Under the pieces are notes generated by a model. The model was not told the DNA's origin. It saw nothing but the letters and a program-made list of their open reading frames with translations, and made no database searches. DNA of 64,000 nt from Mesostigma viride (lineage: Eukaryota; Streptophyta; Mesostigmatophyceae; Mesostigmatales; Mesostigmataceae), in the NCBI GenBank assembly GCA_009746045.1, contig RPFO01000175.1, positions 5,665,414 through 5,729,413 on the forward strand, in the 5' to 3' direction. How positions within the stretch are numbered: the first letter of the stretch is position 1; every line of letters begins with the position of its first letter. A program made the position numbers and the translations under genes. Positions 2,145 through 50,244 of the stretch are shown in pieces.

Positions 2145-2340
2145 AAAAAACTGCAAGGACCAGGACTATGAAGTTCAAGGACCAGGATAATGACATGGGG
2201 CGTACGGCTAACTGCCCTTACCTCCCCACCACCATCGCTCGTACCCGTCGCATACTCATCTCTTACCCCCGCACATGCGTTGACGAGAAGAGCAAGGACC
2301 AAGACAGGCTGTTCATGGTCAACCAGCGCAGTTCCCCAGG
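2145..2340 (+). repeat. Decayed copies of the next exon's start
   Basis: Segments near 2150-2190 and 2283-2335 repeat the beginning of the exon at 2564. The phrase GAGAAGAGCAAGGACCA, followed by CTGTTCATGGTCAACCAGCGC with one change from the exon, recurs here and then diverges into GTTCCCCAGG. The copies sit upstream of a (CA)n tract that ends at the functional acceptor. I read them as duplicated acceptor-side exon sequence rather than as exons. Confidence 0.65.
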
Positions 2341-2446
2341 ATGGCCTAGCACTGCTCCTTTGTTTCCCCTCACACGCTCATCCCTTCCCCTCACACATTC
2401 CTCCCTGACCCTCTCGCACACCCATTCCCCCCCCCTCCCCTTCCCC

Positions 2447-49000: not shown

Positions 49001-50244
49001 CGCGGTTGTTAATTGAATAAATGCCCTTGCTGAGAGGTCGTGGGGCCGTTTTCAACAACCCTTCCACGCAAGTCTATCTGCTCGTTACAATTACTACTAC
49101 AGGTAGAGGTTGTGGGTGGCGGTTGTCATTCTACCGTTCTAGACAAGTCTATCTACTTGTTGCGATTACTACTACAGGTAGAGGTTGTGGGTGGCGGTTG
49201 TAATTCTATCTGTCTAGACAAGTCTATCTACTTGTTGCAATTACTACAGGTAGAGGTTGCGGGTGGCGGTTGTCATTCTACCCGTCTGGACAAGTCTATC
49301 TACTTTTTACGAGTACTACTACTACAGGTATTTACTTGTGACAAGTCATCCACCCTTATCATCTGCTCTGGTTGGTCAGATCCAGCCCTCGTGTCTTGCA
49401 GCGTCAGCGCTCCTGATGGGAGGGCTCCCTGTAATCACTGGCAGCATGCTTGGCCCTCGTGTTCATGCAACGACAGTGGTCTTCCCTACCTTCTTGTTTG
49501 TGTTAGTATCCGTTCGTATTTGTACCCGTGTAACAGTATCCCATAAAGGGAAGACCACTCATGTATTGTCTTCCTTGCGGTGACCATCCACTAGGGTGAC
49601 CCCAAAAGGTGCCCCCTGCGACCATACCACCCCCTTGCCCTGTGCCTGGTGTATACTTGTTGGCGTATACTATGAACACAAACTTAAGTTTGTATGCTTA
49701 CAACGCGGCATACTTAGGTTGATGGTGTTCCGTGTTCCTTGTGCCGTGAAGCGTGTGCCGTGGATGTCATAATATCAATGAGACCACCAGTGTAGGCAAG
49801 AAATCTGGAGACTCCGAACCACGGCATCGCGAGCCGGCTGTTATCTTATCTGCAGTTGTCGAGTCATTCAGGAGGATGGAAACGAATATGGCCACTCCGG
49901 TTGCCTGCGTCGTAGTTCCTTACCCTATGCTTCCTTACCTTCTGCTGCAATTCCTTACCCTATGCTGCAATGCCTTACCCTATGCTTCCTCAACCTATGC
50001 TCGTAAATCCTTACCCTATGCTTCATTCCCTTTGCCATGCATCCTTGCCTATGCTCCCATGCCAGCGTTTGAGCGCCTGGCCAAGCTGGAGGGCATCATC
50101 CCTGCGCTCGAGTCGTCGCACGCACTGGCCTACCTCGAGTACCTGTGCCCCACCCTCAAGGGCGGCAGCAACGTGATCCTCAACCTTAGCGGGCGCGGTG
50201 ACAAGGACGTCAACACGGTCATCAAGCACTTCAATTTGGACTAG
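43008..50244 (+). CDS. trpB: Tryptophan synthase beta subunit, plastid-targeted, 8 exons
   Basis: Exons 43008-43378, 43615-43666, 44905-45054, 45674-45856, 46634-46745, 47445-47775, 48600-48694, 50066-50244 join in frame: 1,473 bp, 490 residues. All introns are GT-AG. The enzyme makes L-tryptophan from indole and serine with pyridoxal phosphate, normally as an alpha2-beta2 complex in the plastid stroma. Diagnostic segments: [15 protein letters not shown] (about residue 98), AHKINN with the PLP-binding Lys184, AETGAGQHG with catalytic Glu206, [12 protein letters not shown] (290), phosphate-binding GGGSNA (329-334) and the C-terminal SGRGDKD. The first 85 residues are rich in Ser and Ala and poor in acids, like a chloroplast transit peptide. 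The start is the first ATG of the open exon. The coding sequence shows no break. Several introns contain copies of exon edges. Confidence 0.95.
44003..44150 (+). repeat. Dispersed ~130-bp repeat, copy 1
   Basis: In trpB intron 2. It contains GAGACAACCAGTGCAGGCCA, GAATTCTGGAGACTGCAGACC and ATGGTAGCTCGAGCCTGCCG, ending near GGAACATGTAGCC. Related copies are at 49772-49895 and 50775-51072. Confidence 0.75.
45055..45130 (+). repeat. trpB exon 3 donor copy
   Basis: The exon end and donor CAACACCGTGGGGCAGGTGAG at 45039-45059 recur without change at 45099-45119, 60 bp downstream. Use of the second donor would add 60 bp containing an in-frame TAG immediately after GTGAGA, so the first donor must be used for TrpB. 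Confidence 0.9.
45440..45673 (+). repeat. Exon 4 start copy followed by (CT)n and (CA)n
   Basis: CCTGCTGGCGAAGCGTCTGG at 45450-45469, followed by an altered GCAACGAGCTCATCATC, copies the beginning of exon 4 (45676 on: CCTGCTGGCGAAGCGTCTGG, GGAAGGAGCGCATTATC). A (CT)n tract (45493-45600) and a (CA)n tract (45601-45634) lie between copy and true exon. Confidence 0.88.
45857..46310 (+). repeat. Three decayed copies of the exon 4 end
   Basis: Exon 4 ends CTCAACGTCTTCCGCATGAA, then GCTGCTCGGGGCGGAG and GTAGGG. Related segments lie near 45950 (CTCGATGTCTTCCGCATGAA), 46100 (GGCGTAAAGCTGTTGGGGGC, then GTGGGTAGGG) and 46265 (TGCATGAAGCCGTTGGGGGC, then TGAGGTAGG). They are about 145-165 bp apart and at least two keep a donor. 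Confidence 0.8.
47794..48095. repeat. About 33-bp satellite in trpB intron 6
   Basis: Nine units of GCGCAAGGGTCGTTTGTGTG plus GATGGGTACTACA, alternating with a variant containing AATAAGGGTCATTTGTGTGG, beginning 19 bp after the exon 6 donor. Confidence 0.92.
48695..48950 (+). repeat. Copies of the trpB exon 7 end
   Basis: Exon 7 ends TACTACAGCGTGACCGACAA, then CGAGGCGCTGCAAG and GTAGGG. At 48774-48812 a copy reads TACTACAGTGTGACCATCCA, then TGAGGCGCTGCAAG and GTACGG. A shorter one near 48928 reads GGTGCACTGCAAGGTACTCC. Confidence 0.85.
49070..49330. repeat. About 75-bp repeat in trpB intron 7
   Basis: Three to four units containing ACAAGTCTATCTACTTGTTG, ATTACTACTACAGGTAGAGG and TTGTGGGTGGCGGTTGT. 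Confidence 0.88.
49772..49895 (+). repeat. Dispersed ~130-bp repeat, copy 2
   Basis: In trpB intron 7, more diverged than copy 1: GAGACCACCAGTGTAGGCAA, GAAATCTGGAGACTCCGAACC, GCGAGCCGGCTGTTATCTT, GTCGAGTCATTCAGGAGGATG. Confidence 0.65.

Follow-up and report, generated by a model that had tools for sequence, protein, structure and literature searches.

Do copies of exon edges lying inside the neighbouring introns betray a process aimed at splice junctions, or are they what introns rich in repeats would carry in any case? The question was raised by a 64,000-nucleotide stretch of Mesostigma viride DNA (hereafter the window; contig RPFO01000175.1, C224:5665414-5729413, within a 440-Mb genome of 2243 contigs). 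In three of its genes, the original prediction had recognised such copies, here called echoes, and had read them as the trace of a mechanism directed at exon/intron boundaries.

Gene D, a putative protein of no assigned name (22670..40652, minus strand), was modelled with 15 exons in a single open frame throughout, separated by GT/GC-AG introns, and its 14 introns were tested; searched against Pfam, it gave one match, under its curated cut-off. Introns 4 and 10 of this gene contain very long simple arrays (window 34885-36300 and 28650-30130), with a unit of ~25 bp like CTCTCTTCCCTCCCACTTGTTTGCGT, and with CCCTCG/CCCTCT repeats. The last three exons of gene B (2564..5561, plus strand) also form a single open frame, for which no Pfam match was found. 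The third gene, trpB (43008..50244, plus strand, 8 exons), codes for tryptophan synthase beta (PALP, E 7.8e-45), and 7/7 of its introns were recovered with the same edges from a spliced alignment with E. coli TrpB alone (57% identity). In and beside trpB, related stretches beginning like ATCAATGAGACAACCAGTGCAGGCC (window 44001, 49770, and 50774) look by eye like a dispersed repeat, and broken frames resembling, again by eye, the reverse transcriptase of non-LTR retroelements were seen at window 51147-52352 and 54060-57220, close to tails made of TTAA or TTTAA repeats.

The total sample comprised 85 introns: 23 from these genes, 52 homology-supported ones from elsewhere, and 10 predicted only, the latter from gene U, located in the 200 kb round the window. 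Homology-supported introns were contributed by gcvP on C887 (4), four ClpB-like loci (19), and two genes of the same 200 kb, detected by codon usage and aligned to solved structures (PDB): a crooked-neck splicing factor (CRN, 11 introns) and a PBP1-like transpeptidase (18). The latter is an intron-rich gene for a bifunctional enzyme (C224:5649839-5666134, ending at window 721) with 19 modelled exons; PBP1-like transpeptidases occur in organisms with plastid peptidoglycan. Models of these two genes came from structural homologs and from a gene finder partly trained on window genes; a few of their edges were set by hand before testing (the donors of CRN exons 2, 4, and 10 and the acceptor of PBP exon 16). 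The edges of CRN 4 and CRN 10 were set after repeats had been seen there; the former donor gave a match, non-displaced in the classification below, and the latter gave none. PBP introns 1 and 18 have reading-frame support only, the PDB alignment missing one side, and neither holds an echo. We left out intron 2 of gcvP and the final two introns that the aligner had proposed for this gene. For weak or odd edges, 6/10 aligner introns of L042 and 2/4 of L043 were dropped too. Removal of masked or too-short targets reduced the 85 introns to 81 donor and 78 acceptor tests. Two features of the sampled gene families were seen in passing: exon 4 of crooked-neck leads into a 21-bp array (C224:5632698-5632833), the unit of which repeats the exon end plus donor (CAAG/GTGGGC) and is open in frame, and ClpB/ClpA-like genes with long uninterrupted frames lie together at C2011:352812-355346 and 518108-519823, on a contig that is possibly a bacterial contaminant.

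For the genes of the window, each junction query (up to 45 bp of exon and 25 bp of intron) was aligned to its own intron and judged by 300 dinucleotide-shuffled versions of itself, with simple sequence masked and a threshold of p<=6/300. Echoes were found for 10/23 donors and 7/23 acceptors, and reverse-complement junction queries gave 0/46 in the same test. Every junction that had been named in advance yielded a match, in the same orientation and in the adjoining intron. Matches were classed as tandem when the block spanned 0.6 or more of the spacing, or when the remainder of the unit was similar, and as displaced otherwise, a post hoc rule made after examples from both gene sets, with the second set being no blind replication.

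In gene D (all coordinates on the minus strand), the five named exon ends showed echoes of different kinds. A tandem array starts in the final 14 bp of the exon that ends at 40526 (D1, 40008..40539), and an array of 34-bp units carrying exon end and donor belongs to the exon ending at 34016 (D6, 32695..34049), where the last 17 exon bases have 34 exact occurrences, including the exon itself, with some spacers longer. Three donor echoes accompany the exon ending at 34592 (D5, 34328..34469), the best of them displaced by rule, although to the eye they make up an array, now decayed, of ~60 bp. The exon ending at 27298 presented three donor echoes outside the displaced class (D11, 27169..27263), and the one ending at 25792, with a GC donor (GAG/GCAAGT; GC donors were also seen in PBP introns 9 and 10), a displaced echo of 19/23 bases (D12, 25700..25722). 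On the acceptor side, both named starts were matched by displaced copies, that of the exon starting at 34092 by 97% of 34 bp at 140 bp distance (34206..34239) and that of the exon starting at 31282 by 28/31 bases (D7, 31372..31403).

Echoes in trpB (plus strand) corresponded to all four named edges, namely the end of exon 3, both edges of exon 4, and the end of exon 7. The donor echo of exon 3 (T3, 45099..45119) is displaced, with 21/21 bases at 60 bp and a dissimilar remainder of the unit. The acceptor of exon 4 has an echo outside the displaced count (45424..45488), with 27/31 exon bases and CAG changed to CAC, and its donor has three (T4, 45950..46291), the best displaced by rule, with stretches between copies that look related by eye. 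A displaced acceptor echo of exon 6 (47260..47296, 29/34) and a donor echo of exon 7 outside the displaced class, with an extended exon match of 46/56 (T7, 48769..48816), complete the set. In gene B, also on the plus strand, both donors tested were matches. The exon ending at 2751 has an echo of 42/51 bases over the extended block (B1, 2815..2865), which is probably tandem despite its displaced label, as the remainder of the unit is similar (p 0/300). The exon ending at 3810 has five (B2, 3867..4181), with scores dropping with distance; here too the remainder of the unit is similar, yet the rule labelled the set displaced. Upstream, two acceptor echoes belong to the exon starting at 3644 (3212..3370, the best displaced), and a copy of the start of the first modelled exon, 2564-2751, lies 283 bp before it (2281..2329, 92% of 49 bp). 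Finally, the PBP1-like exon starting at 459 has a weak displaced acceptor echo (311..356, plus strand, 31/46).

The geometry attributed to these copies fared less well. Instead of a spacing of 60-160 bp, displaced donor copies of all genes begin 30-343 bp into the intron, and 81-395 bp separate the end of a displaced acceptor copy from its exon. Decay growing with distance was seen in B2 and T7, and weakly in D11; neither D1 nor D6 showed it, and the highest score in T4 belongs to the middle copy.

In the enlarged test (70-bp junction queries, p<=3/300), 33/81 donors and 15/78 acceptors had a copy in their own intron. Equal-sized interior intron windows searched in the same directions matched in 214/709 and 222/709 cases (per-intron means of.21 and.22). 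With one interior window drawn per intron, 16.6+-2.9 matches were expected for donors versus 32 observed (78 introns), and 16.4+-3.0 for acceptors versus 15 observed (75 introns). With all echoes pooled, the claimed enrichment at junctions was therefore upheld for donors, by a factor of two, and not for acceptors. Matches were rare in one intron of another gene per query (1/81 donors, 1/78 acceptors), for reverse-complement queries (4/81 and 1/78), and for control queries from the exon interior, 50-120 bp from the edge (1/86). Echoes of both classes are also tied to side: the last 45 bp of exons matched their own downstream intron in 22/84 cases and the upstream one in 2/70, and the first 45 bp matched the upstream intron in 15/84 and the downstream one in 0/69. 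Deeper exon segments gave 0/61 (-90..-45) and 1/65 (+45..+90), and the far ends of long introns 1/23 and 0/23. Echoes are confirmed as real, and they extend beyond the window to genes on other contigs. In a per-base scan of the whole region with 60-bp windows, z>3 was more frequent in introns (.447) than at edges (.327), since tandem arrays dominate such a scan; self-BLAST families at a strict threshold spanned 5/23 donors and 1/23 acceptors, about as expected from intron coverage.

Donor matches were tandem in 12/33 cases and displaced in 21 (21/81 junctions), and acceptor matches tandem in 3/15, masked in one, and displaced in 11 (11/78 junctions). Interior matches, in contrast, were mostly tandem (193/214 downstream, 204/222 upstream), and displaced copies were found for only 18/709 and 16/709 interior windows. 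The excess of displaced copies over the interior corresponds to odds of 13 for donors (Fisher, p 2e-12) and of 7 for acceptors (p 2e-5), p values that are optimistic, as windows from one intron are non-independent. Among the 52 homology-supported introns elsewhere, displaced copies were detected for 13/48 donors versus 8/353 interior windows (p 2e-8) and for 7/46 acceptors versus 11/353 (p 2e-3). The 10 predicted-only introns of gene U showed no significant excess (donors 1/10 versus 3/107, acceptors 0/10 versus 0/107). Several displaced donors are doubtful: B1, B2, CRN8, and GCVP5 have a similar remainder of the unit in a slightly different test, and removing these together with D5 and T4 leaves 15/81, still far above 18/709, with the pruning applied to donors and the interior figure unpruned.

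Tandem copies behave otherwise. They are rarer at junctions than within introns (odds.46 and.10), as expected if duplications disturbing splicing get removed, and on the donor side their share rises in one step, to.12-.23 once inside the intron, without peaking at the junction. Some of the most striking sets belong here, as arrays starting in the exon end (those at 40526, 34016, and B2, plus T4 by eye). We regard this as the ordinary class: introns are full of tandem arrays, gained continually, and some of them begin in an exon end and persist since their copies sit in the intron. No special mechanism would be needed for donor echoes to lie downstream and acceptor echoes upstream, as a duplication across a splice site would be tolerated only where the extra copy ends up in the intron.

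Displaced copies have a different anatomy. In 40-bp windows along the donor side, their fraction was 0-.03 for starts at -140 to -60 and.06 at -50..-10, rose to.18-.20 from -40..0 to -20..+20, and fell to.12 at -10..+30, to.03 at 0..+40, and to 0-.08 further into the intron; for acceptors, the corresponding fraction was.12-.17 at the junction and 0-.06 elsewhere. Blocks are mostly 20-57 bp long, in the same orientation as the exon, and usually include a few bases of splice-site consensus; their exon content is 6-54 bp for donors and 16-51 bp for acceptors, with queries extended up to 120 bp into the exon. Copies lie 30-400 bp away and are nearly confined to the abutting intron. Donor block ends vary from -6 to +42, with just 10/21 within -6..+8. 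The clearest case was found in intron 9 of the ClpB-like gene on C113, where 46/47 exon-end bases recur 51 bp into the intron; past seven bases matching 5/7, the remainder of the unit is dissimilar (p 77/300).

The strongest rival explanation is neutral tandem duplication combined with purifying selection on exons, in which the frozen exon copy keeps an old unit recognisable for longer. It accounts for both sides and both directions, for a tandem class without junction peak, and for the 12/33 donor matches that are tandem, and some of the displaced calls are probably tandem too. We simulated it as uniform tandem duplication with array growth, substitutions, indels, and deletions (plus unrelated insertions in two sets), with frozen exons, with the intron receiving the copy of any duplication that spanned a splice site, and with 150 shuffles instead of 300. 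With five sets of assumed parameters, and as a model rather than a proof, the simulations placed displaced copies at 3-6% of donors (26% observed), 5-8% of acceptors (14% observed), and 2-4% of interior windows. Total donor matches stayed below the interior rate in three rounds of simulation (donor/interior ratio of.59-.87 in one of them), versus the observed twofold excess. In addition, T3 (21/21) and intron 9 on C113 (46/47), which have no similar remainder, are hard to read as aged units, and the reach into the exon ends at 54 bp. Given the gap between the simulated 3-6% and the observed 26% of donors, part of the echoes seem to reflect something acting at junctions. We consider the neutral scenario somewhat unlikely, though a serious contender; tandem duplication with other parameters is, along with conversion from exon to echo on old tandem units, one of the two main rivals.

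In this second rival, the exon side of an old tandem unit is kept alike by one-way copying from the exon (gene conversion or slippage) and the intron side decays. It predicts that blocks should end near the junction, that exon identity should be high where the intron shows no similarity, and that copies should occur only in the abutting intron. However, stretches of 20-50 bp offer little homology for conversion, and the intron part of the blocks is no more decayed than the exon part (0.88 versus 0.84, or 0.86 after removing four rows that are non-junction echoes), a comparison biased by local alignment. On balance, conversion appears clearly unlikely.

Echoes might instead be kept by selection, for example as splicing-factor decoys or alternative splice sites, as would suit their position next to splice junctions and the GT or AG that many of them keep. 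Both first intron bases are retained in 19/26 best copies covering them and each base in 22/26, no better than at neighbouring positions, and selection for splice-site use was rejected on this similarity between dinucleotide and flanks. Furthermore, echoes accompany a minority of junctions, range from near-identical to heavily decayed, and in some cases have lost the splice site. Judged by their sequence, displaced copies appear to decay neutrally, with no sign of selection for use, and we hold this explanation to be very unlikely. Chance similarity or composition, in favour of which nothing was found, was rejected by the other-gene, reverse-complement, and exon-interior controls, and its probability is negligible.

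The reading that we favour, with less than even confidence, is that two processes are superimposed: ordinary tandem duplication and a short displaced copying set by junctions. The idea of a process aimed at junctions would accordingly survive for the displaced class, with its short, non-adjacent blocks centred on the junction, and is at odds with the tandem class, which has no junction peak. Repair or template switching at R-loops, as originally suggested, may or may not underlie the displaced copies. In the displaced copying, a block of the exon edge would be copied locally, in the same strand, into the abutting intron and would then decay neutrally. Such local, strand-coherent copying suggests template switching in replication or repair, the start or end of which would be set by the splice junction. 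The junction would probably exert this role via transcription or splicing at that site, being marked, for example, by a hybrid or a bound splicing complex; DNA itself marks the junction by a short consensus only, and transcription or splicing is therefore the natural suspect. A bolder claim, which we think fairly unlikely, would be that a mutational process coupled to transcription or splicing copies ~20-50 bp of exon edge into the adjoining intron, leaving a heritable mark in the DNA, with introns growing partly from their own borders. We know of no established cause for displaced junction copies, and no description of displaced exon-edge copies was found in the literature searched.

These results touch on two open questions, the growth of introns and a possible influence of splicing on mutation, and displaced copies offer a countable signature for them, since each decaying copy can be set against an exon held under constraint. 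Should the excess at junctions prove general across the genome, it would suggest that exon borders are recognised at the DNA level, for which we know of no mechanism; should it not, the example would still illustrate how neutral duplications beside constrained exons can pass for targeted ones.

Among known systems, the review PMC3443670 describes intron gain through tandem genomic duplication of exon segments containing AGGT, which resembles our case in being a local duplication that involves exon sequence and splice sites. Under that model, an intron's donor context comes to resemble its acceptor context, whereas here the similarity of an intron's own donor and acceptor contexts was at background (mean 3.65 versus 3.52 for non-own pairs). 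As a general cause it was rejected, being clear only in a 69-bp intron of the PBP1-like gene (583..651, plus strand), whose donor context matches its acceptor context (score 14, attained by a fraction 0.0001 of non-own pairs) and which was likely gained by tandem duplication, to judge from these matching contexts; intron 7 of the ClpB-like gene on C113 showed such likeness too, less clearly. Intronic minisatellites overlapping an exon end are a second known system, and the arrays at 40539-40008 and 34049-32695 are of this kind, in contrast to the displaced copies, which are short, non-abutting, and, by rule, without a similar remainder of the unit. A spread like that of introners was rejected, other-gene introns (one per query) having given 1/81 donor and 1/78 acceptor matches.

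End joining of the polymerase theta type produces templated insertions, short blocks derived from nearby sequence. Displaced copies are alike in being short blocks copied from nearby, but the source of templated insertions should ignore gene structure, and here it is concentrated at splice junctions: the displaced source peaks there, and exon sequence 45-90 bp from the edge gave 0/61 and 1/65. Finally, PMC11390984 presents a break repair mediated by transcript RNA, in which the RNA acts as a guide for end joining without dependence on DNA synthesis. As presented there, it is unlike our case in that end joining by itself inserts no copy, and alike in that it would tie repair to the gene's own RNA.
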